A stretch of DNA of 64,000 nt, taken from NCBI RefSeq assembly GCF_000816085.1, contig NZ_CP008747.1, positions 1,860,001-1,924,000 on the forward strand, in the 5' to 3' direction. Of this stretch, positions 1-15,856 are shown in pieces. Made by a program: the position numbers and the translations under genes. The stretch comes from Staphylococcus hyicus. Lineage in GTDB: Bacteria; Bacillota; Bacilli; Staphylococcales; Staphylococcaceae. The notes under the pieces were generated by a model. The model did no database searches, was not told the origin of the DNA, and saw nothing but the letters and a program-made list of their open reading frames with translations. Within the stretch, counting starts at the first letter, position 1; every line of letters begins with the position of its first letter.

Positions 1-227
1 GGTGTCCCAAAATCTGAATACGCCTGAAGCAACATAGGATACCGCTTCACTCGATGCACTCGAAATTTATCGCTTATGTTTTCAAAGGCTTTAATTGCAG
101 GGTTTTTAGGATCATTAATTGCAATTAAATCTACATCATATCCTGCTTCAGCTAGTGTTGTACACTCACGATTTACCCGTGCATCATTCGTGAAATGATT
201 CCAGACAAACATTCCTACTTTTTTCAT
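1..227 (-). CDS. glycosyltransferase, N-terminal part (cut by window edge)
   Basis: Only the first 75 codons are inside the window. The start ATG ends at 227 and has a strong Shine-Dalgarno sequence (AGGAGGGGAG, 231-240). The protein opens MKKVGMFVWNHFTNDARVNR and continues with a GAGYDV-like stretch (AEAGYDVDLIAI), the pattern of the N-terminal Rossmann half of GT-B, family 4 glycosyltransferases, where the first strand is followed by a DARV-type helix. It follows the TagH-like gene in the same direction with a gap of about 96 bases and is probably the next gene of the surface-glycan operon. The donor and acceptor sugars cannot be read from this fragment. Confidence 0.75.
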   Translation of the reverse strand, partial: MKKVGMFVWNHFTNDARVNRECTTLAEAGYDVDLIAINDPKNPAIKAFENISDKFRVHRVKRYPMLLQAYSDFGT

Positions 228-323
228 ATACTCCCCTCCTATGTATCGTTTGTATATCATGTATTACCTTCAAGATAGTAACTTACCTGTCAAAACGTAT
301 AAAATGGGGCTTGCTTATAATGA

Positions 324-1232
324 TTAACTAACAATTTGCCAAAATATACCTGCAATAAATAAGCCTAAACTAGCAAAAACAGGTATAAATGCCGTCCAAT
401 GTGCCTTCTCAAGTTGGGATTCGTCAATTGTATCACTACGTTCTTGTTGAAGTCTTAACATCTTCTTTTTATATGCAAGTTGGCCCTTTTTATCCCGTGC
501 TTTAAAACCACGAATAAGCGTATTATAACGGTTGACAACGTGGTTGACTTCACCATATTCTATCATTTCGCCATAATGAATCCATATGGCTTTATCACAC
601 ATGTTTTTAATTTGTGCTGCAGAATGAGACACAAAGAATATCGTTTTCCCTTGTTGTTGCAATTCTTTCATTTTCGAAATACATTTATTCGCAAATGTTT
701 CATCTCCAACCGATAAAGCTTCATCAACAATTAATACATCTGGATTGGTGTGAATCGCAATAGAAAACCCTAATCGTGCTTTCATTCCACTTGAATAACT
801 TTTAATCGGTTGATATATAAACTCATCTAGCTCTGAGAACGCGACAATAGCATCAAAAACATCATTGATTTCTTTAGATGACATGCCATGCATCAAACAT
901 TTATATCGAATATTTTCCTCACCTGTAAAATCATTTTTTAACCCAGCTGATATCGCAATGAGAGAGGATTTTCCATTGATATCAACAGCGCCTCGTGACG
1001 GAATTAACACTTCAGCCAGAATATTAGAAAGCGTTGATTTACCTGAACCGTTCAAGCCTATGAGCCCAACAGACGTCCCCTCTTCAACTTCAAAAGAAAC
1101 ATCATATAACGCATAATAAGGCTTCGGTTTATAAAAATATCCAAATGATAAAAGCGAAATGATTTTACTGATTTTATTATTATTCAAATCATAAATTTTT
1201 GATACATGGTCAACTTTAACTTTGTACGTCAT
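324..1232 (-). CDS. TagH-like ABC transporter ATP-binding protein (polysaccharide/teichoic acid export)
   Basis: ATPase of a polysaccharide ABC exporter, 302 residues. Walker A is GLNGSGKST (59-67), the signature is SSGMKAR (147-153), Walker B ends in D170/E171, and the switch histidine is H203. The stretch between Walker A and the signature (AISAGL, FTGEENI, ELDEFIYQP) closely resembles S. aureus TagH, the ATPase that exports wall teichoic acid. Unlike the 264-residue S. aureus protein as I know it, this one continues through a charged linker into a hydrophobic segment (about 279-301), which looks like a C-terminal membrane anchor. The likely partner is the TagG-like permease at 9805-10617, in the same operon but eight genes away. 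It is probably a second TagGH-type exporter beside the housekeeping one, which is not in this window. Confidence 0.88.
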   Translation of the reverse strand: MTYKVKVDHVSKIYDLNNNKISKIISLLSFGYFYKPKPYYALYDVSFEVEEGTSVGLIGLNGSGKSTLSNILAEVLIPSRGAVDINGKSSLIAISAGLKNDFTGEENIRYKCLMHGMSSKEINDVFDAIVAFSELDEFIYQPIKSYSSGMKARLGFSIAIHTNPDVLIVDEALSVGDETFANKCISKMKELQQQGKTIFFVSHSAAQIKNMCDKAIWIHYGEMIEYGEVNHVVNRYNTLIRGFKARDKKGQLAYKKKMLRLQQERSDTIDESQLEKAHWTAFIPVFASLGLFIAGIFWQIVS

Positions 1233-1251
1233 GTCATCACCTTGTTTAATC

Positions 1252-3252
1252 TTATTTTTCCGAGTTAAAACGCGCTACATTCATTTTTATTTGTTTAAAG
1301 CCATCTATATAATGTTCAAAATCTTCGAGATGTGTACGAATAATGTCACTATCTTGATCCATCATGCTATTTTCTTCGGTAAATGCCCATATCGCTTTAC
1401 CGCTACCTTTATAATCACTTAATTTAGAAGGGATATATGGGTTAAGTGGTTTAATACCCTTTGTATGTGCATCAAATAATAATAAGCCATCTAAAAGCGT
1501 GGTTATATTTAAAAATTCAAAGTAACCTACTAATGAATGTAAGACGATATAATCATTAAAATCACTATTTCGATGAAGAACTTTGACATTTCCTTTCAAA
1601 TTTGTAAAACAATGAATTTTAAAATTCGTCTCACCTTTAGCTTCTAAATATTTACAAACTAATTCTATTTCATTAAAACCGCGAGTTTCATAAAAATTTC
1701 CAAAATAACCTAAGTTAATGACATCTGGATCAACATTGTAATGTGTCATTTCTTTACGATAATCAGATTTTAAAGGAACCGGATGGCGTGAAATCACTGC
1801 TCTATCACGAATAGATTGTTTTAGTGTTTCATCAAAACGTGCAATCATATACTCCAATTGGTTTTCATTCGTAAAGATTAGTTCATTTGCGCCTGACAGT
1901 GCTAATAGTTCACAGACATTAAAAACGTTATCATCGACTAAATCTCTAAGTTCCGGTTTTAATAATATTTTTACCTTTTCAATGTATGCTTCGTCTTCAA
2001 TCGGAGCAAAGCGTAAATCACTGGTCACAGTTGAGTGCAGTGGATCAGAAAACTCAGCACGCCAGTATATGTCTGGATACGCTTGTTTAATTTCAAATGC
2101 TAAAAAATGAGATTGGGGAAACATGGCGCGCGAATACAAATAGTGATATGATTTAGGATTTTGTTTTAAAATGTCTAAACCTTGTTCCACAAATCCGCTA
2201 ATACTCTCCCAACTTGAAAAAGCTTGCTTTGCTTCTAATTGGTAATGACAATCTATAAGATGGTGTGCTAATGATGTTAATTTTTCATCAGTTTTGCGTA
2301 ATCGGGCCATATTATTAGAAATGACGTCAACAATTTCATTTTTATCACGAATACGCTTTGCCATGACATTCCCACTCGTATCAATATATGGTGGAAAACA
2401 ATATGCAATCACTAATGTTTCAGCTTTACCATTGTTTAATAAATGATAATTAAACTGATCCATCGATTGATGTATATACTGATACAATTTGTCTCTTGTT
2501 TGTTTATCTTGTCGATTCAAAAATTGACCAATACTTTCAATTAATGCATTGGCTTCATACTTTATCCGCACATCCGAATGAATCGTCATTGTTTCATTAT
2601 ATATCGCTTTAATCGTCTCAAGTGCTTGAATGACATCATTTGAAGACTGTATACGAGGTAAGTGATGCGTTTTGTTGTGACTCGTTTTCACATCATAAGA
2701 AATATGATAGGTATGATTTACAACTTCATCAATATAGTACCGAATATACTGATGTAAACGATAATGTAAATTTAAATTTTTAATTCTATATGTCGGGTAA
2801 ATTTTTTGACTTCCTGCTCCGTACACTACCGATTGAGATAATCGTTCTGTTTCCACCCTGTCAACAATGTGTGAATCATTTTCAAAATAAAAGCAACAAT
2901 GCGACTGATTGATGCGTTGTGTTACAAATCTAAAAGAATAATGAAATGCTCTGTCATCAAAATAGTAAAAAACATGTGGTGCTTCTTTTAAAGATGAACG
3001 TACAAACTCCGATAACGCCACTTGTGTTTTAAAAACGACAATCACTTGTTCAAAACGGTCAATAATGGGCTGGATAAATTGAATATCACATTGGTCTAAA
3101 AACAATATATAACTGATGCCTTTTTGAAGATTTTGAGGTTGAAATGCATCCATTGACTTCAATGCTTCATTTATAAACGTATGGGCTTGTCTTCGTTTAG
3201 GTTTTTGCATTGCTTCTAATTGTTCTGCACTATACGCTTCATGCACATTCAT
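1252..3252 (-). CDS. large glycosyltransferase-like protein (GT-B fold, 666 aa)
   Basis: Probable glycosyltransferase. From about residue 290 it reads like a GT4-type enzyme: the first strand and glycine loop (VIAYCFPPYIDTSGNVMAKR), then a second Rossmann half starting at INLGYFGNFYETRGF, and a nucleotide-side stretch near PSKLSDYKGSGKAIWAF. The first 280 residues are not a recognisable part of a normal GT4 enzyme and have a Rossmann-like start (ISYILFLDQCD). At 666 residues it is much longer than the usual 370-400. It overlaps the upstream 239-residue gene by four bases (ATGA) and lies 19 bases before the TagH-like gene, so it is translated as part of the glycan operon. The sugar transferred is unknown; the family is inferred from fold-level motifs only. 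Confidence 0.65.
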   Translation of the reverse strand: MNVHEAYSAEQLEAMQKPKRRQAHTFINEALKSMDAFQPQNLQKGISYILFLDQCDIQFIQPIIDRFEQVIVVFKTQVALSEFVRSSLKEAPHVFYYFDDRAFHYSFRFVTQRINQSHCCFYFENDSHIVDRVETERLSQSVVYGAGSQKIYPTYRIKNLNLHYRLHQYIRYYIDEVVNHTYHISYDVKTSHNKTHHLPRIQSSNDVIQALETIKAIYNETMTIHSDVRIKYEANALIESIGQFLNRQDKQTRDKLYQYIHQSMDQFNYHLLNNGKAETLVIAYCFPPYIDTSGNVMAKRIRDKNEIVDVISNNMARLRKTDEKLTSLAHHLIDCHYQLEAKQAFSSWESISGFVEQGLDILKQNPKSYHYLYSRAMFPQSHFLAFEIKQAYPDIYWRAEFSDPLHSTVTSDLRFAPIEDEAYIEKVKILLKPELRDLVDDNVFNVCELLALSGANELIFTNENQLEYMIARFDETLKQSIRDRAVISRHPVPLKSDYRKEMTHYNVDPDVINLGYFGNFYETRGFNEIELVCKYLEAKGETNFKIHCFTNLKGNVKVLHRNSDFNDYIVLHSLVGYFEFLNITTLLDGLLLFDAHTKGIKPLNPYIPSKLSDYKGSGKAIWAFTEENSMMDQDSDIIRTHLEDFEHYIDGFKQIKMNVARFNSEK

Positions 3253-3968
3253 TTTGCTTTCACCCTTTTCAACATCAATTTCAGTAATTTATACATATTG
3301 CGTTTATTGACTTTCTTCTTATAATACGCGATGCGCTCTAAATTATTGATCAGTACTTCATTTTCTAAATACTTTTTCTTATATTTCCAAGCACTTCTTT
3401 TGAATTTATGCAATTCTAGAAATGCGAACTGCATGCGCTTATGCGTCGATACATACGTATCGTAAAGGGCATCATAATCTTTTTTTATCGTCAGTAATTC
3501 TTGTTTTAAGCGCATGTCATTCATAATAGGACGCTCACGTTCTGCTCTAAAGTCTGACTTTAATTGTTCGAATAAATAAAGATTATGTTTCCCATCATAT
3601 GGAACAATATCATTACCAAAAAATTCAATATGTAATGTCCCTTTACTGTAATAGTAAATGTTAATCGTATATTCTTTAATAAGTTTCCCTATTATTGCTT
3701 CAATATGTTCAAACTGTACATGTAAGGATTGAAAAATCAGTTTCACCGTAATATGACTTTTTAAATGATGGACGAGTTCTTGAAAAATCATCATTTGTAC
3801 ATGGTTGATCGTTTCATCAAAATAAAAGTTAACCTTTTGGAGGTGGGACATTTGGTTGACAACACGTTTTAATAGAGAAACATCGTTGTCGCTACTTTTA
3901 AACCAAACGTCTAATACACTTTCATCTTTAGATAAATGTTTAGAAATGATAAATTCATTATTGACCAA
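3249..3968 (-). CDS. protein of unknown function in glycan operon (239 aa)
   Basis: I do not recognise this protein. It has no signal peptide and no clear membrane segment. The first 130 residues look like an alternating alpha/beta domain (for example KVNFYFDETINHVQ, ITVKLIFQSLHVQ), and the last 100 are helical and very rich in lysine, arginine and tyrosine (KRSAWKYKKKYLENE, ending KLMLKRVKAK), so the C-terminus may contact membrane phospholipid or nucleic acid. I place the start at a TTG codon (3966-3968) because it has AGAGGAAG six bases upstream and the first nearby ATG is out of frame. It sits between the 119-residue protein and the large glycosyltransferase-like gene, overlapping the latter by four bases, so a role in the same pathway is inferred. 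Confidence 0.7.
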   Translation of the reverse strand: MVNNEFIISKHLSKDESVLDVWFKSSDNDVSLLKRVVNQMSHLQKVNFYFDETINHVQMMIFQELVHHLKSHITVKLIFQSLHVQFEHIEAIIGKLIKEYTINIYYYSKGTLHIEFFGNDIVPYDGKHNLYLFEQLKSDFRAERERPIMNDMRLKQELLTIKKDYDALYDTYVSTHKRMQFAFLELHKFKRSAWKYKKKYLENEVLINNLERIAYYKKKVNKRNMYKLLKLMLKRVKAK

Positions 3969-3983
3969 GTCGATCTTCCTCTC

Positions 3984-4343
3984 TTAAAAGACTTTTATCT
4001 CTTTGGTTTCTGCTACTTTTTGCGCATTATTTTGTTGCACAAACGCTTTAATTCTATATTTACCTGGTTCTAATGATAGGTGAAATACATTTTGCTGTTG
4101 GTACATTAATTTTTCTTCAGGAATCGACTGTCCTTTTTTATAAATATATAACGCATATTTCATGTGTTCACCTGAACTACTTACAGTAATGGTAACCTGT
4201 CCTTCTTCAGTTTGATCTGCGATAATTTCATCAATTCTTAAAGTAGCTGGATTATGGTCAAGTAATATTGCCGTCTCAACCATAATGTCTTCTAATTGAC
4301 TTTCTAAATATTCATATGCTTTTTTATAGTCGACATTAGTCAT
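3984..4343 (-). CDS. small beta-rich protein of unknown function in glycan operon (119 aa)
   Basis: Not recognised. The first 45 residues are helical (KKAYEYLESQLEDIMVETAI). The remainder alternates short strands and turns (GQVTITVSSSG, KYALYIYKKG, FHLSLEPGKYRIKAFVQ, VAETKEIKVF) in the manner of an immunoglobulin-like or carbohydrate-binding beta sandwich. No signal peptide is visible, so it should be cytoplasmic. The start overlaps the end of the preceding glycosyltransferase gene by eight bases, which implies coupled translation. A small accessory subunit for one of the neighbouring glycosyltransferases, or a binding domain that senses the finished polymer before export, are both possible; neither is shown by the sequence. 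Confidence 0.65.
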   Translation of the reverse strand: MTNVDYKKAYEYLESQLEDIMVETAILLDHNPATLRIDEIIADQTEEGQVTITVSSSGEHMKYALYIYKKGQSIPEEKLMYQQQNVFHLSLEPGKYRIKAFVQQNNAQKVAETKEIKVF

Positions 4344-5472
4344 TTAAAATCACCTCTAACTCTTTTTTGATTACTACATCATTACCTGTTAGTGCTTGAA
4401 TTTTAGAAGAAGCGGTGTGACTCATTTCTTTAAATTTATTTGGATGTTCCACTAAATACATAATGGCGTCAACCATTTGATCCACGTTATTTCGCTCTGC
4501 TAAAAAGCCTGAAACACCATGTTCAACAAAATCAGGAATCCCACCAATAGCATTTGAAATCGGCACTAATCCTGAACTCATGGCTTCATTTAAAGATACT
4601 CCTTGTGAATCGTGTCGACTTGGTCCTAAATAAATACCGTGCGCTGCATGCAAATCAGAAATTTCATGTTGCGGCACAAACATTTTATTTAAACTGACGT
4701 TATTGAACTGACGTAATGGCACAGTTAATGTCTCAAATAAAGGACCGTCGCCATAGAGTGAGAATTTCATTTTTTTAAAACATTTCTTTTTAGACAATCT
4801 TAATATTACTTCAACCGTTAAATCATTAGCATAATTTTTAGCAGTGTACGGTCGAATCGATAAGATATTAAAACGCGCATCCTCACTTTTTTCTTTGTAT
4901 GGAAACATATGCTTATCAATAATATTAGGTATGATTTCAAACTTTTCTGGTGACGCCGCTACAAATGGATCGACATACAACGTCTTTAGACCTTTAGATA
5001 CATATACAAATTGAACATTCATATCTTGACGCGTCATCAACTTTTCAAAAAATGCGCGTTGTTGCGGATAATGTGCATCTTTTTTTCTAAGTTGCTCATT
5101 TAATGTTTTAGCCGAGGCTAAATAATTATAATATCTTGTATACCAAGCTTCAGCCTCAAACCCGTGTATCCACACTGCTACTTTGGGTTTATGTTCCAAA
5201 CGTTCAATGGCTTGAAACATTTTATAATTAATAAAATGAAACAATAGTTTGTCATATTGGTTATATAATAGGTGGTTGTATAATTGTGCTTCATTCATAT
5301 ACATTATTTTCACGCCATCAAAATACGCATCACGTTTAATCTTAGTTGTAAATACAACAATAGTGATGTCTAAACTGTGTGCTTGATATCCTTTAACTCT
5401 TCTATGAATAAAAGCGTTAGCGTAAATTTTATCTTTGTTGGGATACGCATTTGTAATTAATAAATAACCCAT
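4336..5472 (-). CDS. glycosyltransferase family 4 protein
   Basis: GT-B glycosyltransferase, 378 residues, the normal length for family 4. The N-terminal strand and loop are LLITNAYPNKDKIYANAF. The C-terminal nucleotide-sugar domain starts around FNILSIRPYTAKN, contains LYGDGPLFE, and carries the diagnostic donor-site stretch SRHDSQGVSLNEAMSSGLVP, with the conserved glutamate of NEAMSSG, followed by GGIPDFVEHG. No signal or membrane segment, so it acts at the cytoplasmic face. It starts one base after (in fact sharing position 5472 with the stop of) the 852-residue transferase and overlaps the next gene by eight bases. It is likely to add one sugar of the repeat or chain of the surface glycan. 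The family assignment is firm; the substrate is not known. Confidence 0.88.
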   Translation of the reverse strand: MGYLLITNAYPNKDKIYANAFIHRRVKGYQAHSLDITIVVFTTKIKRDAYFDGVKIMYMNEAQLYNHLLYNQYDKLLFHFINYKMFQAIERLEHKPKVAVWIHGFEAEAWYTRYYNYLASAKTLNEQLRKKDAHYPQQRAFFEKLMTRQDMNVQFVYVSKGLKTLYVDPFVAASPEKFEIIPNIIDKHMFPYKEKSEDARFNILSIRPYTAKNYANDLTVEVILRLSKKKCFKKMKFSLYGDGPLFETLTVPLRQFNNVSLNKMFVPQHEISDLHAAHGIYLGPSRHDSQGVSLNEAMSSGLVPISNAIGGIPDFVEHGVSGFLAERNNVDQMVDAIMYLVEHPNKFKEMSHTASSKIQALTGNDVVIKKELEVILND

Positions 5473-8030
5473 TATTTAACCTCGCTTTGTAACTTTTTTA
5501 TAGCTGCTAAGAGTGTCTCGTCATGTGGACGTTTCATTGAATCGTAAAGGTGATAAATATTTAAAAACGCTACGATTACAGCGTTATCTACATGTGTCGC
5601 ACGATTAATACGTGCGATGTACCAATGTTTCATATAAAAATTAAAACGATAATGCATATACGTCTCTAGATAACCGTGTCGTTTTAAAAATTTAATTTTC
5701 TCCTTTTCCAATTTATAATACTTCTTAAAAAATGACGGTGATATTGTGTTAGTCATGGATTGCGCAATAGCGGCATAATACGTGTGCACAATCGTATCAA
5801 CGACCTTCACTTTACGTGCATTGTGCATGACATTGAGAAAAAATAATGAATCTTGGCCAAGTGCACCAGGAACCATTTGTATGTGATGGTGTTGAATGAA
5901 AGCGGTACGCATAATTAAAGCTTGAATACTCGCTGTTTTAAGCTTGGTTTGCTTTAAAAGCGTTTGTGTATCGTACGTGATATCTTGATGCATTGTATTT
6001 ATAAACTGTTGATAATACGTATGTGTTTGCGTTTTCTCATTATCCACTTTAATCATATTACCGATCACTACATCGAGTTGTGCATCTGCTTGAATCGCTT
6101 CTAATAATTGATTAATTCCATCTCCAACCCATTCATTATCTGGATCAAGAAACGTTAAGTATGGTGCGCGGGCATGCGTCATGCCAACGTTTCTAGGTGT
6201 AGAGGCACTTCCTGATGCAACATCTAATGAAATAACTTTAATATTGTCATACCATCTATTATAAAGTGAAATAGTGTTGCGCGTTAAAGCATCTGTTGAC
6301 CCATCATCAACTAATATCACTTCAAATTGATTAAATTGAGGATTACGTATGATAGATCTCAACGCTTTATGTTCAAGATGACGTCCATTGTTATGAATGG
6401 GCACAATCACACTCAAAATTGGTTTTGAAGAAGATGTTGTTTGTGGTGATTGATTTAAAAATGTCGCGTCACGTGCGTAACCATGTTGATAAGATGTTAC
6501 TTTCGATTTAAACAAAGTGTAGGACTTATCGTCATAACTAGAGACATATTGATTTTCAAGCGTTGATTTCGTAATAAATGACGTATTAGTAAATGCTAAA
6601 GGTAAAACCAAGTCATCCAAGTATTCGGGTTGATAATCTTGTCGACCTTCAAAATACGTATAAAAAGGCGTTTTTACATCGTTTATAGAATTGACAGCGA
6701 CCTTAAATGGATAATATTGGTCGTCAAACATTTGACGTGCGCGTGCGTCTTTTGGATCAATAATCACTGAAACGATTGGCCATTCTGTAGGTTTGGGATT
6801 CATGTCACACCATGTTGCAATTTGTTTCAACCATTCAAATTGATTAAAGTGTTTCACAACTTGTTGTTCACCTATTTTACGGGCGCGCTGTAATAAAACA
6901 GAGTCCATGCCTAAAGTTGAGGCAACATCTTTTTGATCGAAGATGATTTGAATTTGTGGCATTTCTGCATTTACAAACGTATTGTAATTAGAAAAAATAA
7001 AATTCGAAATGCCTTGAAGTTCATATATACGATTGGCACACATCGTCGTTGAATATTTAATGGTATTTAGATTTATTGAAACCGGAAACTGTTTGTGCAT
7101 CGACATCGTACGTTCATGTGATAACGGGGCTGCAATAGATGAAATAAATTCTGCTGGAAATTGATATTTTAGCTGATTCAACCATAAATTACGATCATAA
7201 ATTGTTAAATCATACGCGCTATTCAAGACGCCATTAAATAAAGTTATTGCATCTTGATTACGTTCTGCATACTTTTCAATCCATGATCCAGCAAAAACAA
7301 CCTCTTTCGTATCCGTGATTTTTTTAGTGCCTACAGAATTATGTTGTTGTAAATTAATTGGAAATTTCAAATGATACACGCGTTGATGATTCACGTGTTT
7401 TTGATAAGTTGGAATTAACGTTTCTTCAGTCGTTACAACAATATCCGCCAATTTCGCATGTGGTAAAAACACATCAAAATTAACAGGATCTTCCTTATTA
7501 AAAAAAACAACGGGAATATTTTGCGATTGATACGTTTGAATGCGTGTTTGTAATTCTATAAACTTGTCACTATTGGGATTAGTTACGCCTTCCCAATAGC
7601 CATCAATGCCCTTCCATGTCGATGCCACTATAATAAAATCAAATGCTTTTTGAACGTTTGCATCATTTAAATAGATGAGATGACACACACCTTTTAGTGC
7701 ATCATATAAAAAGGTGTCGGCAATAATTCCCACCTTTAAATCTTGTTTTTGATACAAATAAGCATCCCAATCATCATGGTGATATGTTGTAAGTAAATCT
7801 TCACGATTGCCTTTACCATATTGATGAAATGCTTGAATATAATCGATATACATTTTTAAAAATGACGCCTCATTGATATTATGAATCGCTTTTTCAGGAC
7901 ATTGATTCATAACTTCAGCAATGTGCTTTAATGTCCGTAACTCCGTTTCATCATGGACAATTGTCTCACGTGTCATTTGAAATGGTTTAGGTTTACCAAA
8001 CAAAATATCTTTTAACGAATTAAAGTTCAT
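5472..8030 (-). CDS. two-domain glycosyltransferase (CgeB-like GT-B plus GT2)
   Basis: A fusion of 852 residues. The first half resembles the CgeB / glycosyltransferase-group-1 type: an early stretch (LKVGIIADTFLYDAL) and a later one (KEVVFAGSWIEKYAERN, then FPVSINLNTIKYS and CANRIYELQG). The second half, from about residue 540, is a family 2 GT-A domain: LSVIVPIHNNGRHLE, VILVDDGSTDALT, SASTPRNVGMTHARAPYLTF and then a DPDNEW metal-binding site in place of the usual DxD. I start it at the ATG ending at 8030, because GGGAGAG lies six bases upstream and this start overlaps the preceding stop as ATGA; an in-frame ATG at 8045 has no ribosome site. Two active sites in one chain suggest a polymerising or two-sugar-adding enzyme, which is inference. 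Confidence 0.82.
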   Translation of the reverse strand: MNFNSLKDILFGKPKPFQMTRETIVHDETELRTLKHIAEVMNQCPEKAIHNINEASFLKMYIDYIQAFHQYGKGNREDLLTTYHHDDWDAYLYQKQDLKVGIIADTFLYDALKGVCHLIYLNDANVQKAFDFIIVASTWKGIDGYWEGVTNPNSDKFIELQTRIQTYQSQNIPVVFFNKEDPVNFDVFLPHAKLADIVVTTEETLIPTYQKHVNHQRVYHLKFPINLQQHNSVGTKKITDTKEVVFAGSWIEKYAERNQDAITLFNGVLNSAYDLTIYDRNLWLNQLKYQFPAEFISSIAAPLSHERTMSMHKQFPVSINLNTIKYSTTMCANRIYELQGISNFIFSNYNTFVNAEMPQIQIIFDQKDVASTLGMDSVLLQRARKIGEQQVVKHFNQFEWLKQIATWCDMNPKPTEWPIVSVIIDPKDARARQMFDDQYYPFKVAVNSINDVKTPFYTYFEGRQDYQPEYLDDLVLPLAFTNTSFITKSTLENQYVSSYDDKSYTLFKSKVTSYQHGYARDATFLNQSPQTTSSSKPILSVIVPIHNNGRHLEHKALRSIIRNPQFNQFEVILVDDGSTDALTRNTISLYNRWYDNIKVISLDVASGSASTPRNVGMTHARAPYLTFLDPDNEWVGDGINQLLEAIQADAQLDVVIGNMIKVDNEKTQTHTYYQQFINTMHQDITYDTQTLLKQTKLKTASIQALIMRTAFIQHHHIQMVPGALGQDSLFFLNVMHNARKVKVVDTIVHTYYAAIAQSMTNTISPSFFKKYYKLEKEKIKFLKRHGYLETYMHYRFNFYMKHWYIARINRATHVDNAVIVAFLNIYHLYDSMKRPHDETLLAAIKKLQSEVK

Positions 8031-8590
8031 GAACGTCTCTCCCATAGTTTAATTTGGATACGTCCCAGCCTTGATTCTCGCAATTTCAAATAACGATTCA
8101 ATAGTGTATCTTTCATCTCTATTAATTGTTTAACATGATTGCGTTTTTTAATATTATCTCCAAGTAGTTTTTTCACAGCTAATTGATGGTTATGATTGTG
8201 TAGTTGTTGCGTTATGTATAAGTGTTTTGCAATTTGTTTCCAGTAGCATTCTATATGTATAGGGACCGTTGCTTTATCCTTGCTATCGTAGCGCAATGAA
8301 GGCTTTTCATGTTTAATAATGGTATACTGGTTCAATTTAAAGTCATACGCATCATATAACATGAGTGAGACAGCTGACTTCGGTACAAAAATGCGTTGTT
8401 CTTGAATTCGAAGTGCAAGCGTGTTTGCATCATGCTCATACAACACTTGAGCATACGACTCATGTTGATGTAATCGAATTTCTTTCGTCAAAGCTTCATC
8501 TTTATATCCCGTTAAAACCGACGTGTTAATATGAACATAACAATGTGCATAAGATAATGTTTCTAAAAATGATTTTATTTCAGCATCCAT
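8027..8590 (-). CDS. protein of unknown function in glycan operon (187 aa)
   Basis: Not recognised. It has no signal peptide or clear membrane span. The first 120 residues look like mixed strands (AHCYVHINTSVLTGY, NTLALRIQEQRIFVP, YTIIKHEKPSLRY). From 125 on it is a basic helix (KKLLGDNIKKRNHVKQ, NRYLKLRESRLG, ending IKLWERRS). This plan, a beta-rich front and a basic helical tail, is shared with the 239-residue protein of the same operon, although I cannot align the two with confidence. The start follows directly after the stop of the family 4 transferase, and its stop overlaps the start of the two-domain transferase, so it is tightly co-translated with glycosyltransferases. Confidence 0.68.
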   Translation of the reverse strand: MDAEIKSFLETLSYAHCYVHINTSVLTGYKDEALTKEIRLHQHESYAQVLYEHDANTLALRIQEQRIFVPKSAVSLMLYDAYDFKLNQYTIIKHEKPSLRYDSKDKATVPIHIECYWKQIAKHLYITQQLHNHNHQLAVKKLLGDNIKKRNHVKQLIEMKDTLLNRYLKLRESRLGRIQIKLWERRS

Positions 8591-9784
8591 TTAAACACCT
8601 CTTAATTTTCCAGTTAATTTAGGAAAATTATTTTCCCAAATAAACTGCTTATCTCTTAAATTTTTTGTTTGAGAGATAATATGATTCAATAATTTTGGAT
8701 TCTTTTTAATTTGCTCTATATAGTCGATAATCTCTTCTGTTGATGCTCCAGCTTTGGCAAAGCCTAATTGTTGACTGTTAATCAACTCGCCTGTATATCC
8801 CCCCACATTACTCACCACTGGTGTTCCTGAGCAAATACTATCAACAATTTTACCTGGCATCACATTCATAAATACCTCACTAGGCTCTAAAATGGATAAT
8901 GATACGTGATGTCTAGATATGGCTTTTAAACACGCGGCTCTCTTCATTGGTGGCACAAGATGTATTGATGTCAAATGCTCTTTTTTAACAGCCTCTCTAA
9001 ATACATCGGCTTGTACACCATAAATAATTGCTGTCATTTGGATATCCTTTGCGTGCAACCCACGTGCAATGTCTATCAATTGATCCACATTTTGGGCATA
9101 TCCAATATTGCCGGTATACACAACGGAGAAAGTATCATTTTTGACCGGATACAAACATTCCGCTTTTGAAACTGCATTTGGTAAATAGATCATTTCATGA
9201 TTTTCATCCAACATTGTATTAATATAGGATTGAAAGTATGGGTTGTTCACAACGATTTCATCCGCTCGCATATACATTTGTTTTTCCAACCATTTTAGTA
9301 AAGGCAATAAAAACCTAACTTTTATTTTCTTTAAACATAAAAAACTATCTGGCCATAAATCACGTATTTCTAGAAAATATTTTGCTTTTGTATTGCGCTT
9401 AAAAAATAATGTCGCCCAAGCTAAGAAAATATTCGGACTGGATACATAAACATTATCATAGTGTCCCAGTTTCCCTATATACAAACGTACTTTAATCATA
9501 AGTTCGATATAATAAAACAACCGATGGACTAAATCGGAGTGTTGTTTTTGGCAATGCATCCGTATTCTAATAATGCGATATCCTTCTAACGCATTTAATT
9601 CAGCGTCATCGTAATATGAATGATCGTTAAATAATGCATGATTCGGATATGAGGGTTCTGTCGTCACAATTAAAGGTTCATACCCAGCTTTTTCAAATTG
9701 TTTATACAGTTGTTTCATACGATTGGCTGCCGAACCCAATTCCGGATAAAAATTTTGACTGATTAATAAAATTTTACCTTTCAT
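8591..9784 (-). CDS. glycosyltransferase family 4 protein (WbuB-like)
   Basis: GT-B glycosyltransferase, 397 residues. It opens KILLISQNFYPELGSAANRM, the classic start of the WbuB/ManNAc-type subgroup, in which a pro-glu-x-gly-ser loop precedes an alanine/asparagine helix. Other landmarks are FLEIRDLWPDS (138-147), the second Rossmann strand VVYTGNIGYAQN (221-232), and the donor-site stretch MPGKIVDSICSGTPVV (309-324). The usual donor-site glutamate region is SEVFMNV..PGKIVD here. It lies 20 bases after the TagG-like permease gene and directly before the 187-residue gene. WbuB-type enzymes often transfer N-acetylated sugars in polysaccharide loci, which would fit the neighbouring UDP-ManNAc dehydrogenase; that is inference. 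Confidence 0.87.
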   Translation of the reverse strand: MKGKILLISQNFYPELGSAANRMKQLYKQFEKAGYEPLIVTTEPSYPNHALFNDHSYYDDAELNALEGYRIIRIRMHCQKQHSDLVHRLFYYIELMIKVRLYIGKLGHYDNVYVSSPNIFLAWATLFFKRNTKAKYFLEIRDLWPDSFLCLKKIKVRFLLPLLKWLEKQMYMRADEIVVNNPYFQSYINTMLDENHEMIYLPNAVSKAECLYPVKNDTFSVVYTGNIGYAQNVDQLIDIARGLHAKDIQMTAIIYGVQADVFREAVKKEHLTSIHLVPPMKRAACLKAISRHHVSLSILEPSEVFMNVMPGKIVDSICSGTPVVSNVGGYTGELINSQQLGFAKAGASTEEIIDYIEQIKKNPKLLNHIISQTKNLRDKQFIWENNFPKLTGKLRGV

Positions 9785-9804
9785 AATGAGTCCTTTCTTC
9801 CATA

Positions 9805-10617
9805 TTATAGGAAATCTAATAAGCGATCTTTAAAGCGATGATGTACTAATGCCCCTAACGTCAATACGAGAAAAGTAAATGACCAATAGTAAAAATGATC
9901 TGCTGGTGTACCGTATAACACCGGACTATGGTGTACAAAAGCACTTCGATATACTTCAACTAAATACGTAAACGGATTGAGCCGTGCGATGGTTTGTAAT
10001 ATAGGCTGAGCTGAACTCAATCCCCAAAAAATGGGTGTCATAAAAAATCCAAGTCTCAATACATTTTGAAGCACATTTTTTGTATCTCTAATCACAATGA
10101 CTAATGAACTCATTAAGAGTGAAATGCCAAATATTGCAGGAAATGACGCAATAATAAAATAAATAAAAAGACTATACTTCCATATTGGAACATATCCATG
10201 TAATACTGATACAACAAATAAAATGCTCGTCATAAAAAATAAATTAAACAATGTATTAGTAAATGATATGGATAGTAATACTGATGATGGGAATTTCATT
10301 TTTGTGACTAAACTTAAATTAGATTGAATGGCATTCGCACCTGAATTAATACTTTGCGAAATAAACAACCAAGGAAATAAGCCTGAGATTAAATGCACAA
10401 TAAAGGGGGCGCCATCTACAAGGCGATCTCCCCCTCCTCTTAGTCCTAAACCAAAGATCAAATAATAAACTCCGACTTGCATCATCGGTTGTAAAATATT
10501 CCAAAACACACCCAAGTAATGGTTTGAGTACTGACTTTTCATATTATAGACAGCGAGTTGCAATATTTGTTGCCAATTTTCAATTTGTTCTCTTAGTATG
10601 ATGATTAATGCTTTCAC
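9805..10617 (-). CDS. TagG-like ABC-2 permease (polysaccharide export)
   Basis: Membrane component of a polysaccharide ABC exporter, 270 residues with six expected membrane spans. Family hallmarks are visible: the cytoplasmic amphipathic start followed by NHYLGVFWNILQPMMQVGVYY, the GLFPWLFISQSINSG segment, and near the C-terminus NPFTYLVEVYRSA, all typical of the TagG/KpsM/Wzm (ABC-2) family. It should flip a lipid-linked glycan across the membrane with the TagH-like ATPase encoded at 324-1232. The gene lies 25 bases after the CapO-type dehydrogenase and 20 bases before the next transferase. Having the permease at the front and the ATPase near the back of the operon is unusual, since tagG and tagH are commonly adjacent or divergent. 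Confidence 0.9.
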   Translation of the reverse strand: MKALIIILREQIENWQQILQLAVYNMKSQYSNHYLGVFWNILQPMMQVGVYYLIFGLGLRGGGDRLVDGAPFIVHLISGLFPWLFISQSINSGANAIQSNLSLVTKMKFPSSVLLSISFTNTLFNLFFMTSILFVVSVLHGYVPIWKYSLFIYFIIASFPAIFGISLLMSSLVIVIRDTKNVLQNVLRLGFFMTPIFWGLSSAQPILQTIARLNPFTYLVEVYRSAFVHHSPVLYGTPADHFYYWSFTFLVLTLGALVHHRFKDRLLDFL

Positions 10618-10642
10618 AATATAACCTACTATCTAAATGGAC

Positions 10643-11908
10643 TTATGACTTTTTCGTGAATTCATACAAATTTCCGTAATTATAGTATCGTACGGTCTCA
10701 AAGTGATGTTGCATCACATTTTTTGTATCGAAAATAACTTTATCTTTCATGGATGAAAAATCATGGTCTGTTAAATGTTTAAACTCTGAGTGGTCACTCA
10801 ATACGAGCACTAATGATGCATCTTGAACAGCTTTTTCAAAATCTTTTTCAACAAAGTCTAATTCAACATGTGGGTCATATGTGACGACATTCAAAGTCTC
10901 ATCTTGACGTAAAATTTCATAAATATCAAATGCTGGTGATTCACGTATATCATCTACATCACCTTTATATGTCAATCCTAAAACTGTGATTTTAGTGCCA
11001 TTTAACTGTTTGAGCATTTCTCTCGTTTTCTCAACAACGTAGTGAGGCATAGAACGATTCACTTTACGTCCTGTTTGAATGAGCGGTGAGTGCTCTGGAT
11101 CTTTGGCAATAATAAAGTATGGATCCACCGCTAAACAATGTCCCCCCACACCTGGTCCTGGTAAATGGATGTTTACGCGTGGATGTTTATTCGCCATTTC
11201 AATAACATCTAAGACATTTATGTTTAAATTATTACTGATTTTAGCGAGTTCATTAGCAAGTGCAATATTCAAATCACGATACGTGTTTTCCATTAATTTA
11301 CTCATTTCAGCAGTACGTGCATCTGTCTCAATCATTTCACCTTTAACAAACGTGCTATATATACGTTTCCCCGCTTCAATACATGCTGGTGTTATCCCAC
11401 CTATGATTCGATTATTATTGATTAATTCTTCTAAAATTTTCCCAGGTAATACACGTTCAGGACAATGAACAAGATATAAATCTTCCCCTATCGTAAATCC
11501 TTGTTCTTCTAAATATGGCTTAACATGATCATCCATCGTTCTAGGAGCAATCGTTGATTCTACAATAACGGTATTCCCCTTTTTCAAATAAGGAACAATG
11601 CTTTTAGTTGCACTCATAACAATTGAAATATCGCATGATTCATATTCATCATCATTATTGGGCGTCGGTACCGCAATAATAAATGCATCAGCCTCTTCAG
11701 GCGTAAGAGATGCTTTAAACTTACCTGTAGCCAACACTTCTTCATAAGCATCTTGTAAACCTGGTTCCTCTATATGAATGTGACCATTATTCAAACTATT
11801 TACTGCTTTTTCATTAATGTCAACGCCAATAACATCTATGCCATGCTTGGCAAACATAATAGATGTAGGTAATCCAATATATCCTAAACCAACAGTCGTT
11901 AATTTCAT
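10643..11908 (-). CDS. capO: UDP-N-acetyl-D-mannosamine dehydrogenase (CapO/WecC type)
   Basis: Cytoplasmic NAD-dependent enzyme oxidising UDP-ManNAc to UDP-ManNAcA in two steps, 421 residues. The NAD fold is at the start (GLGYIG, 7-12), the substrate-recognition region includes IVESTIAP, CPERVLPGK and ENTYRDLNIALANEL, and the catalytic cysteine is C258 in GPGVGGHCLAVDPYF. The sequence is very close to what I know of S. aureus Cap5O/Cap8O. UDP-glucose dehydrogenases of the same superfamily are the alternative, but the GKILEELINNNRIIGG region fits the ManNAc branch. I start it at the ATG ending at 11908, nine bases after GAAGGG; an in-frame GTG nine bases earlier touches that ribosome site. 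It is the first gene of the operon. UDP-ManNAc would come from the housekeeping MnaA epimerase, not in this window. Confidence 0.88.
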   Translation of the reverse strand: MKLTTVGLGYIGLPTSIMFAKHGIDVIGVDINEKAVNSLNNGHIHIEEPGLQDAYEEVLATGKFKASLTPEEADAFIIAVPTPNNDDEYESCDISIVMSATKSIVPYLKKGNTVIVESTIAPRTMDDHVKPYLEEQGFTIGEDLYLVHCPERVLPGKILEELINNNRIIGGITPACIEAGKRIYSTFVKGEMIETDARTAEMSKLMENTYRDLNIALANELAKISNNLNINVLDVIEMANKHPRVNIHLPGPGVGGHCLAVDPYFIIAKDPEHSPLIQTGRKVNRSMPHYVVEKTREMLKQLNGTKITVLGLTYKGDVDDIRESPAFDIYEILRQDETLNVVTYDPHVELDFVEKDFEKAVQDASLVLVLSDHSEFKHLTDHDFSSMKDKVIFDTKNVMQHHFETVRYYNYGNLYEFTKKS

Positions 11909-12267
11909 TTCATACACCCTTCTTGTTTAATCAATATTATGTGCTCTAACCAAAGATATTAAACCTATATTAATTCTTAATTAAATTTGAAATAATTTCA
12001 ATCTTAAAGCTACCTTCTTCCTTAATTTTAACACTAACTTAGAATATGATTAAATTTAACTATATAATTTTTACAATTTCTTAATAAATGCTGCTATCAC
12101 CAATAATTTTATATAAGTATAAATATCTTTAATGTTTATCATATTATATATCAATATATCAAAACTTCAAATTTTTAAATGTTGCAACTTTTCATTTAAT
12201 ATAGTATGAAATTAAAACCTACAAGCATTAGTATGATTTAGTTATCGCTGGTGCCTTTAACTGAAAA

Positions 12268-12679: not shown

Positions 12680-14323
12680 CTACAAAAATTGTTGTTGAAA
12701 TGCCTTAATGACATTTTCAAAATTTCCCACTTTAAGTGAAAAATAGATTTTCATTTTAGGTTCCGTCCCTGATGGACGAATCGCGATAAAACCTTCATCA
12801 AATGTAAAGCGAATCACATTTGAAAACGGTAAAGTCATCACTTCTTGTACACCAGTTTCAATGTTCGTTGCCAAGCCTTCACGATAATTTTCTATCGTTT
12901 TAATTTTTAAACCACACAAGTGTGTATCGCTGTATTGACTAAAAGTGGTCATTAACGCTTTGATTTTGGCTCGCCCTTCTTTTCCATCATAAACCGGCGA
13001 GAGTGTTAAATCTTCAAATCGTCCTACTCGTCGATAAATATCTTGTAGTACATCATAAAGCGTTCGGCCATCATCATGCAATTGTTGTTTATATTTTACT
13101 AATAAAGGAATGCATTGAATGGCGTCTTTATCCCTTGAGAAATCTTGAATTAAGTATCCATGACTTTCTTCATACGCTAACACTAGCTGTTGATTCATAT
13201 TTGAGCGTTTCTCAAGTTGATCAGATATATACTTAAAGCCTGTTAATACATTTACACTATCTAATCCAAGGTGCTGAGCTAATGCCTCACTCGTTGCACC
13301 TGTCACAATCGTTTTTATAATGTATTTGTGCATTGTACACTCTGACAATTCTTTTGCACGCAACATCATTAAAATTAAACCTATTTCATTCCCGTTAAAA
13401 AAGTAGTGTGAACCATCTTCATAACGCTCGATGATACCAAATCGGTCTGCATCAGGATCAGTCGCTATTATCAATTGTGCATGTGTTTTATTTGCAAGTT
13501 TTATCGCGTGATCAAACGCCACGGGATCTTCTGGGTTTGCAGTTTTACACGTTGGGAATGCACCGTCAGGTATCGATTGTTCTTCATCAATTGAAAAGTT
13601 TTCAAACCCTAATCGTTTAAGAATATGCGAGAGGATCGGTAGGCTTGTACCGTGTAAACTTGTGAGTAGTACATGCGCCCCATGATCCTGAATAGCCCCA
13701 TACAGACGTGTCACATGAACAATGTACTGTTCAGTCACTGATTGAGGTAAGTCACGAATAAATCCGCTTTCAATTAAGACCTCCATTGGCTCTACATCTA
13801 TATTTAACGGTGAGTCTATCGCATTGATATATGTGCTCAACGCTTCAGACGCTTCTGGCAACAATTGTCCACCCTCTCGACCGTATATTTTTATGCCATT
13901 ATAATCACTTGGATTATGGCTTGCCGTAATCATAATGCCTGCATCAGCTTTAAGATATCTTATCGCAAAGGATAACTCGGGTGTAGATTTATATGTATTC
14001 GATACAATGACATACACTGACTGAGTTGCTAAAACTTTAGCCATTTCTTTCGCAAATGCTTCTGATAGATAACGTGTATCATAATGAATTACGACTAAAG
14101 GTTCTACTAAGTCACGACGAAGAAGTTGTGCTAGACCTAGTGCAACTTTTCGAACTGTAAATTTATTCAACCGACCAGGTCCAAGACCAAATTTACTTCT
14201 AATCCCAGCAGTACCGAATGTTAATTCATCCTCGAACGCTTCCATACGCTCTTGCTCATTTTGTTGCTCATAGAAGGTTTTTACTAAACTTTCTTCTAAA
14301 CGTGACATCCATTGTGCCTTCAA
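12680..14323 (-). CDS. pgcA: alpha-phosphoglucomutase
   Basis: Cytoplasmic enzyme converting glucose-6-phosphate and glucose-1-phosphate, the entry to UDP-glucose for glycolipid and wall polymers. It is an alpha-D-phosphohexomutase with four domains in the usual order: the phosphoserine loop TASHNPSDYNG, the metal loop DPDADRFG, the sugar loop EESHG, and the C-terminal phosphate loop RPSGTEPK. I prefer a TTG start ending at 14323, giving KAQWMSRL, because AAGGATGGTG lies at a normal distance; an in-frame ATG ending at 14335 directly touches AAGG and has no spacing. The gene stands alone, facing lcpB divergently. UgtP and LtaA, which use its product for the lipoteichoic acid anchor, are encoded at 49.9-52.2 kb of the same window. 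Confidence 0.92.
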   Translation of the reverse strand: MKAQWMSRLEESLVKTFYEQQNEQERMEAFEDELTFGTAGIRSKFGLGPGRLNKFTVRKVALGLAQLLRRDLVEPLVVIHYDTRYLSEAFAKEMAKVLATQSVYVIVSNTYKSTPELSFAIRYLKADAGIMITASHNPSDYNGIKIYGREGGQLLPEASEALSTYINAIDSPLNIDVEPMEVLIESGFIRDLPQSVTEQYIVHVTRLYGAIQDHGAHVLLTSLHGTSLPILSHILKRLGFENFSIDEEQSIPDGAFPTCKTANPEDPVAFDHAIKLANKTHAQLIIATDPDADRFGIIERYEDGSHYFFNGNEIGLILMMLRAKELSECTMHKYIIKTIVTGATSEALAQHLGLDSVNVLTGFKYISDQLEKRSNMNQQLVLAYEESHGYLIQDFSRDKDAIQCIPLLVKYKQQLHDDGRTLYDVLQDIYRRVGRFEDLTLSPVYDGKEGRAKIKALMTTFSQYSDTHLCGLKIKTIENYREGLATNIETGVQEVMTLPFSNVIRFTFDEGFIAIRPSGTEPKMKIYFSLKVGNFENVIKAFQQQFL

Positions 14324-14557
14324 AATGTGCACCATCCTTAATGTATAATTTAAATAACCACATCATCATTATTATACATGATGTTTAAATGCATTGTGAA
14401 ACAATCCAATGTATTTAATGCAGTGGCTTACATCTTTAACAATCGGTGTTATACGCTTAATTTTTTGTCATATATAGATTAAACGACAGTATGATACGTT
14501 GCATTTTCACACGCACCATAATGAAAACGCTTATTTCATCATTTTTATGTAAAATCA

Positions 14558-14632: not shown

Positions 14633-15856
14633 ATGAATAAAGTTTTCAAATACGTGCTGTATTTGCTTGTTCTCATACTCGTAATTGTTCCTGCAATATT
14701 TGCTTTTATTTTATTTAATTCGTCAAGAGATGCTTTTGACGATTCTTTTTCGCAAAAAGATAGAAGAGAATCTGTGCTGCGACAACATAAAGTGAATCCA
14801 TCCAAAGAACCTGTATCCATATTATTTCTAGGTATAGATGATAGTGATGCACGTAGAGAAAATGGTCAAAGTGTCGAACAATCGCGAACGGACGCGATGA
14901 TTTTATCAACGTTAAATCCTGATAAAAACCAAATTCGTTTGCTCAGCATTCCTCGAGACACTTTAAGTTACATTCCAAAAGTAGGTTATTACGACAAAAT
15001 CACACATGCACATGCATATGGTGGACCTGAATCATCTATGGATACGGTTGAAAAGACATTAAATATTCCAGTTGATTATTATGTTCGTATTAATATGGAT
15101 GCTTTTGCAGAAGCTGTCGATGAATTAGGTGGCATAGAATTTGATGTGCCATATGATATTAATGAGCCAAACAGAACAGATCAAGGTCGAATTAAAATAA
15201 AAAAAGGAAAACAAGTTTTGAATGGAGAAGAAGTTCTCGCTGTGACAAGAACACGAAAACAAGATTCCGACTTAAAACGCGGTCAACGTCAAATGGAAGT
15301 TTTAAAAACATTATTCCATAAAGCGCAAGAATCACAATCTCTGCACAAACTAGACGACATCATTAAAATTGTAGGAAGCAATTCACAACATAACTTATCG
15401 TATGATGAAATACGCGCACTCGCAACCAATTATCTTGTCAGTGATACTGAAATTAAAACAGAACAACTCAAAGGTGAAAACGAGCTTTTAAATGGTATCT
15501 ATTATATCAATCCTGATATAGATGCGCTGATCAAAACTGCAAATCGATTACGCAGTGATTTAGGCTTAGAGCCTATTAAAGATCATCAAAAATTTCTTAT
15601 TGAACGGGTGAAACGTGCATTTGGAGAAATTCCTCCCCTACTCAATATTGACGATAGCTTGTTAGATCCAAATTCTAAGAAGAATACTGAGGAAACGCCA
15701 TCAAACGAACAAAATGATACAGCGGCTCAAGACCATGTTCCAACAGACGCCACACCCCCTCAGAATCAAAATGCAGGTCAGCCCGCTGTTCAAGATAATT
15801 CGAATGTACAAGACAATACCAATGTTCAAGACCCTAATACGCAACCCGTATACTAA
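14633..15856 (+). CDS. lcpB: LytR-CpsA-Psr family wall-polymer ligase LcpB
   Basis: Membrane-anchored LCP protein, 407 residues, expected to transfer lipid-linked wall polymers onto peptidoglycan outside the cell. There is a short cytoplasmic start, a signal-anchor helix (about 7-30), then the LCP domain with ILFLGIDDSDARR, the arginine/aspartate set in SRTDAMILSTLN and LLSIPRDTL, the KITHAHAYGG stretch, and VTRTRKQDSDLKRGQRQ. The tail from about 340 is low-complexity Q/N/D/T. Gene order (lcpB, a DUF2538-type gene, an acetyltransferase, atl) matches S. aureus, where this LCP paralogue is LcpB. LCP paralogues differ in preference between teichoic acid and capsule, so it could also handle the glycan encoded at 1-11.9 kb; that is inference. 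Confidence 0.87.
   Translation: MNKVFKYVLYLLVLILVIVPAIFAFILFNSSRDAFDDSFSQKDRRESVLRQHKVNPSKEPVSILFLGIDDSDARRENGQSVEQSRTDAMILSTLNPDKNQIRLLSIPRDTLSYIPKVGYYDKITHAHAYGGPESSMDTVEKTLNIPVDYYVRINMDAFAEAVDELGGIEFDVPYDINEPNRTDQGRIKIKKGKQVLNGEEVLAVTRTRKQDSDLKRGQRQMEVLKTLFHKAQESQSLHKLDDIIKIVGSNSQHNLSYDEIRALATNYLVSDTEIKTEQLKGENELLNGIYYINPDIDALIKTANRLRSDLGLEPIKDHQKFLIERVKRAFGEIPPLLNIDDSLLDPNSKKNTEETPSNEQNDTAAQDHVPTDATPPQNQNAGQPAVQDNSNVQDNTNVQDPNTQPVY

Follow-up and report, generated by a model that had tools for sequence, protein, structure and literature searches.

The teichuronic acid of Micrococcus luteus is a [-4-ManNAcA-(1-6)-Glc-]n chain (ManNAcA, N-acetylmannosaminuronic acid; Glc, glucose) which carries N-acetylglucosamine (GlcNAc) at its reducing end and is anchored through a phosphodiester (PMC3005890). 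The subject of this report is an operon of 11 genes at the left end of a 64,000-base window (bases 1860001-1924000 of a complete Staphylococcus genome of 2,472,129 bases), whose product is probably a ManNAcA-containing, teichuronic-acid-like wall glycopolymer, finished in the cytoplasm before export by a TarGH-type transporter of its own and ligation by the neighbouring enzyme LcpB. Searches of a collection of openly licensed papers yielded no description of this locus.

With the M. luteus polymer, the proposed product would share the supply of ManNAcA, synthesis by paired transferases, and anchoring near a reducing-end GlcNAc, although in the published model of the M. luteus synthetase it is the enzyme complex itself that pushes the chain out (PMC3005890). 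The comparison here is between polymers, and for the staphylococcal one ManNAcA is the sugar that is predicted. Staphylococcal wall teichoic acid (WTA; tagO-A-B-F/tar) resembles the system proposed here in its TarGH-type exporter and in the probable LCP attachment and probable undecaprenyl primer; however, the operon holds CapO and neither TagB/TagF nor polyol genes, and the genome has its tag locus at another place. The cap5/cap8 loci of Staphylococcus aureus share with the operon a CapO ortholog, ManNAcA, and a variable centre between conserved ends, but they are Wzy-dependent with ligation by LcpC (PMC7831098), whereas the operon has an ABC pair. The tuaA-H genes of Bacillus subtilis also serve a uronic-acid wall polymer, and the GT4 and GT2 transferases of the operon show weak similarity to the TuaC and TuaG models. 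Unlike the operon, the tua system relies on UDP-glucuronate and Wzx/Wzy-type genes. Finally, the teichuronic-acid-like glycan of Streptomyces griseus is likewise a polymer of a uronic acid derived from N-acetylmannosamine (ManNAc) with locus diversity across species, yet it is attached to WTA and its utr genes are a different set (PMC13274773). What is new here is the 11-gene order across staphylococci, the alternative cassettes at the site between lcpB and qox, their exchange, and the relatives in other genera.

The genes run on the minus strand from capO leftward to GT4z, which spans the left edge of the window:

10643-11917, minus strand: CapO, UDP-ManNAc 6-dehydrogenase for the supply of UDP-ManNAcA (Pfam UDPG_MGDP_dh domains; Cap5O structures 3ojl/3ojo)
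9805-10617, minus strand: ABC-2 permease, TarG-like (PF01061; best solved match TarG 6jbh, E 4e-41)
8591-9784, minus strand: GT4a, WcaI-like GT4 glycosyltransferase (PF00534/PF13579; NF007640 below cut-off)
8027-8590, minus strand: U187, fast-evolving protein of 187 residues, conserved in its C-terminal tail LGR(I/L)Q(I/V)KxW (alignments and motif scan)
5472-8045, minus strand: GT857, N-terminal GT-B-like part and C-terminal GT2 domain (PF00535 at residues 545-695)
4336-5472, minus strand: GT4b, GT4 glycosyltransferase (PF00534/PF13692)
3984-4343, minus strand: U119, conserved protein of 119 residues (weak beta-sandwich-type matches below cut-off)
3249-3968, minus strand: U239, fast-evolving protein of 239 residues (alpha/beta N-terminus and long C-terminal helix in a low-confidence model)
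1252-3252, minus strand: T666, 666 residues, predicted GT-B (GT4-like) domain at about 200-660 behind a degenerate GT2 domain (model and Foldseek)
324-1232, minus strand: ABC ATPase, TagH/TarH-like (NF010065/NF010066 below cut-offs; solved TagH 7dd0 and TarH 6jbh)
1-260 in the window and on to genome position C1:1858878 (L002 18878), minus strand: GT4z, last gene of the operon, GT4 glycosyltransferase (S. agnetis ortholog with PF00534)

Adjacent genes overlap or are separated by 0-25 bases, except for 63 or 96 bases before GT4z, depending on the start chosen for that gene. The first-pass annotation of this DNA had described at least 11 co-directional, nearly gapless genes from capO to the window edge, and all of them are present as read. 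This 11-gene operon is genuine and conserved. T666 was found in 9 of 84 Staphylococcus species, every time with the full order, and chance can be ruled out as its origin because the complete order has been kept in these species by proteins that are down to 33% identical. In one genome (G057, L028 8961-16844) the genes for CapO, GT4a, GT857, GT4b and U119 are interrupted and those for the neighbouring phosphoglucomutase/phosphomannomutase (PGM) and LCP enzyme are intact. Decay or assembly error are both possible there, the latter because atl is also split in the same genome.

Extension to the left, which the first-pass annotation had suggested as a check, found the last GT4 gene and then convergent qox genes, followed by folD and the pur operon, with no TagF/TarL, Wzx or Wzy just left of the window. 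To the right of capO lie a PGM gene about 760 bases away and then the divergent lcpB and atl (core gene names on both sides were read from the sequences). Between capO and qox there is no Wzy polymerase or Wzx flippase of the cap5/cap8 kind, and the operon contains no PF04464 polymerase of the TagB/TagF type; all five PF04464 matches in this genome fall at other loci (418-423 kb, 2.110 Mb, 2.164 Mb). Scans with Pfam and NCBIfam detected neither a CDP-polyol synthase nor a sugar-phosphate transferase family in the operon. The locus therefore presents its own permease and ATPase without Wzx/Wzy, which is the signature of an ABC-transporter-dependent glycan pathway. Thus, the earlier statement that TagF/TarL, Wzx/Wzy and CDP-polyol synthase are missing from the locus was borne out, and with it the view that the locus is neither cap5/8 nor tag/tar. 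The same annotation had named such polymerases just left of the window as evidence against its reading; none is found at the operon, with the nuance that TagF/TarL and Wzy-type capsule loci do occur elsewhere in the genome.

Those other loci also dispose of two further assignments. The operon is not part of the WTA system of the genome, which has a separate tagA-tagH-tagG-tagB locus (tagH and tagB recognised by sequence starts and order). Nor is it a displaced cap5/8 locus, as a Wzy-type cap locus is present at C1:479-497 kb (read as C1:478001-498000, L087), with the capA-G order and two polytopic membrane proteins of the Wzx/Wzy type, assigned from sequence starts and gene order and not by family search. 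No CapO match was obtained in L087. Functions in supply and attachment would be completed by three LCP genes, one TagA-family gene, and genes of the UDP-GlcNAc 2-epimerase family, which lie at 807 and 487 kb in the genome.

The acidic sugar of the predicted polymer is indicated by CapO, which is by sequence the ortholog of S. aureus Cap5O: the alignment of the two is gapless across 419 residues and scores 736 bits (3ojl/3ojo). Through this enzyme the locus has the dedicated UDP-uronate synthesis characteristic of uronic-acid polymers. Between the permease and the other TagG-like permease of the genome, that of the tagA-tagH-tagG-tagB locus, identity is only 30%, and the alignments identify the transporter as TarGH-type and distinct from the WTA TagGH of the same genome. 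The initial proposal of a ManNAcA-type acidic glycan that is exported in finished form by a dedicated TagGH-type pair has thus survived the tests that were run, with CapO as an ortholog of Cap5O, TarG/TarH as the closest solved transporters, and a left end free of polymerase and flippase genes.

In the pathway that we consider probable, UDP-ManNAc delivered by the MnaA-type epimerase of the genome would be oxidised to UDP-ManNAcA by CapO. The transferases GT4a, GT4b, GT4z and T666, along with both catalytic regions of GT857, would then build the chain to completion at the inner face of the membrane, on a primer linked to undecaprenyl. There the tail-bearing small proteins (U187 and perhaps U239) might, as a guess, provide a scaffold or a membrane tether. 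Export of the chain would fall to the TarGH-like pair, and the adjoining LcpB-type LCP enzyme would ligate it to peptidoglycan.

The two neighbours on the right side are the following:

12680-14335, minus strand: phosphoglucomutase/phosphomannomutase (PGM_PMM domains), neighbour outside the operon
14633-15856, plus strand: LcpB-like LCP ligase, candidate attachment enzyme (PF03816), divergent from the operon

PGM was rejected as a member of the operon since it stays at the site in species that lack the operon. In another genus of the Staphylococcaceae (L069), LcpB and a gene for 156 amino acids are the direct divergent neighbours of the operon, and in another family of the order (L070-L072) LcpB lies within the same cluster. 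The operon of L069 also includes an OatA-like acyltransferase (8732-10702, by sequence reading), which suggests O-acetylation of the polymer in that genus.

Several points weigh against a free-standing polymer ligated by LcpB. This enzyme is present in 84 of 84 staphylococci, most of them without the operon, and in S. aureus it acts on WTA (PMC7831098); for these two reasons, the link between operon and LcpB rests on position. The three S. aureus enzymes LcpA, LcpB (SA0908) and LcpC are partly redundant, LcpC serving mainly capsule and LcpA and LcpB serving WTA (PMC7831098). The transporter is TarGH-like by sequence, from which we infer export and substrate, and the polymer itself, including its sugar chemistry, is predicted from the genes.

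The alternative that survives best is a capsule or exopolysaccharide exported by the ABC pair and not covalently linked to the wall, being either released or retained through a lipid anchor. Capsules typically show serotype-like variation at a single site, as is described below for this locus, and the operon itself contains no ligase gene. Nevertheless, the known substrates of TarGH-type transporters are wall teichoic acids, an LCP gene adjoins the operon or lies in the cluster in several genera, and the Pfam/NCBIfam scans of the operon showed no genes for a capsule lipid anchor, so that we regard this alternative as unlikely. Less probable still is a glycan which decorates WTA or a surface protein and never forms a polymer of its own. 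The teichuronic-acid-like chain on the WTA of Streptomyces griseus provides a precedent (PMC13274773), and a separate WTA pathway is available in the genome; however, intracellular decoration of WTA needs no dedicated second TarGH pair, and here the pair has been kept along with the operon, the type of transporter changing from cassette to cassette. A variant WTA with a sugar-phosphate or polyol-phosphate backbone, for which the TarGH-like transporter and the LCP neighbour could be invoked, is highly improbable given an operon with no PF04464 (TagB/TagF), CDP-polyol synthase or sugar-phosphate transferase family, in which the acidic group is supplied by CapO instead.

Returning to the teichuronic-acid-like polymer, its largest predicted enzymes may have a shared history. 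T666 (85% identity to the S. agnetis DSM 23656 ortholog) falls below every Pfam and NCBIfam cut-off, and a weak sub-threshold match to RIG-I_C was disregarded. Its structural model, built from an alignment of five rows only, has a mean predicted local distance difference test score (pLDDT) of 62.9, is confident through most of residues 200-660, and matches the GT-B transferases MshA, BshA, PglA and TarM in Foldseek. T666 is therefore predicted from the model to be a GT4-like enzyme of the GT-B type behind a decayed GT2 domain. GT857 is 857 residues long, or 852 from the next ATG, and its GT-B-like half becomes visible in homologs with Glyco_trans_1_2 in the N-terminal part. The T666 homologs of Arthrobacter and Boudabousia carry an intact GT2 domain (PF00535) N-terminal to the GT-B part, whereas in Staphylococcus this region is degenerate and an extra GT2 domain is found at the C-terminus of GT857. 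From this distribution of intact, decayed and extra domains, GT2 activity seems to have moved between proteins inside a conserved set, a relocation that fits a shared polymerase assembly. The assignment of GT4z is supported by its S. agnetis ortholog (L004 13148-14503), which contains PF00534 at the Pfam cut-off.

Relatives of T666 with 37-54% identity were found in further genera of the family and the order, several of which have two T666 paralogs. A T666 relative is also present in 14 of 248 genomes sampled from a family that we take, from the placement of Arthrobacter, to be the Micrococcaceae. M. luteus belongs to the same actinobacterial family as these Arthrobacter-group genomes, so that clusters of the T666 type occur in the family of the organism with the similar polymer. 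Six loci among those read (L006, L048, L049, L050, L051 and L052) combine T666 with GT857-like and CapO-like genes; permease and ATPase are also in the cluster at L006, L048, L050 and L051, and the permease in L052. The Arthrobacter-group clusters unite GT4, permease, ATPase, GT857-like, CapO-like, tail protein and T666.

The small proteins follow this pattern in part. The tail of U187 also ends its counterparts in L069, L070, L073, L006 and L050 (as LTLKxW in L006 and L050), as well as a protein of 308-310 amino acids in two loci of the alternative type presented below (L121 and L123). A weak match of U187 to Ribo_biogen_C, below the Pfam cut-off, was disregarded. U119 is found together with GT4b in other genera. 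For U239, no family emerged from the Pfam/NCBIfam scans, and its structure model was set aside as too poor (pLDDT 53).

The site between lcpB and qox holds at least three exchangeable versions of the locus. In addition to the arrangement of the window (type I), a type II operon was identified in five species without T666 (G015, G068, G051, G022 and G036). Compared with type I, CapO is 86-90% identical and GT857 about 39%, with 58-61% for the permease, 61-66% for the ATPase and 48-49% for GT4a where the stretch read covers them; a GT4z with 70% identity was seen in L123. Type II also encodes proteins not found in type I, of 617-623 and 308-318 amino acids, plus a hydrolase-like protein of 271 where read. 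The first of these shows weak asparagine-synthase-type Pfam matches:

L121 3731-5596, L122 12541-14409, L123 5143-7014 and L124 3869-5722: asparagine-synthase-like protein of the type II operon

This enzyme (621 amino acids) may amidate the uronic acid. In L121-L124 the type II operon lies beside lcpB and PGM, in the position and direction of the window operon; in G036 it is on a contig separate from lcpB, so that the shared site has been seen in four of the five species. A sixth species (G042) has a third arrangement beside lcpB, and no such operon was found at the lcpB-qox site in the remaining genomes as far as they were read, coverage being incomplete mainly for L129. Two genes with SH3_5 domains (one plus CHAP) lie between the type II operon and PGM in L121 (10825-13964) as cell-wall-hydrolase-like insertions. 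In a clade without the operon, the lcpB-qox interval is filled by a protein of 397 amino acids (L130 3994-5187, L131 3466-4659 and L132 3809-5002), labelled FmtA-like by position only.

The cassettes have been exchanged or lost repeatedly, since types I and II interleave on a maximum-likelihood tree of LcpB. There, G015 (type II) groups with G000, G001 and G053 (all type I; 100/100), and G019 (type I) groups with G036, G068, G051 and G022 (all type II; 100/99). Type I requires four changes on this tree, and its starred branches force at least three, with the reservation that this is a single neighbour gene, whose own recombination could contribute, and that five rows marked as having no operon received this label because T666 and a full-length match to GT857 were missing, not from a reading of the site. 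The locus thus acts as a serotype-like cassette, in which the CapO end (and the GT4z end where seen) is common, and the centre and its own transporter are replaced between species. The first-pass annotation had concluded that the locus fits none that could be named. This must now be revised, as the gene set recurs in relatives, resembles teichuronic-acid-type pathways, adjoins LcpB, and is one of several exchangeable versions. Elsewhere in the window, positions 36946-39426 encode an 826-residue surface protein that, to judge by its sequence, starts with a signal of the YSIRK type, contains acidic repeats and ends in LPxTG.

A locus of this kind bears on earlier surveys. In bovine isolates of S. 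chromogenes, capM, capO and capP were present in all cases and other cap genes in 7-14%, and the species was discussed as largely lacking capsule genes (PMC6401416). This capO likely belongs to an operon of the kind described here, which would account for the stray gene. S. hyicus, S. agnetis and related species cause infections in farm and companion animals; only cap5/8 genes were scored in the surveys that our search identified. Because the operon lies beside a wall-attachment gene at a site with exchangeable versions, animal-associated staphylococci probably have an overlooked second, serotype-like surface polymer. Surface polymers govern phage adsorption, immune recognition and vaccine design, and cassette exchange at a core site offers a ready typing locus. 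More tentatively, the hyicus and intermedius groups may possess a second LCP-anchored polymer with exchangeable cassettes, from whose dedicated ligase the LcpB of S. aureus could descend. The neighbourhood of LcpB would in this way provide a testable origin for one of the three partly redundant ligases of S. aureus.

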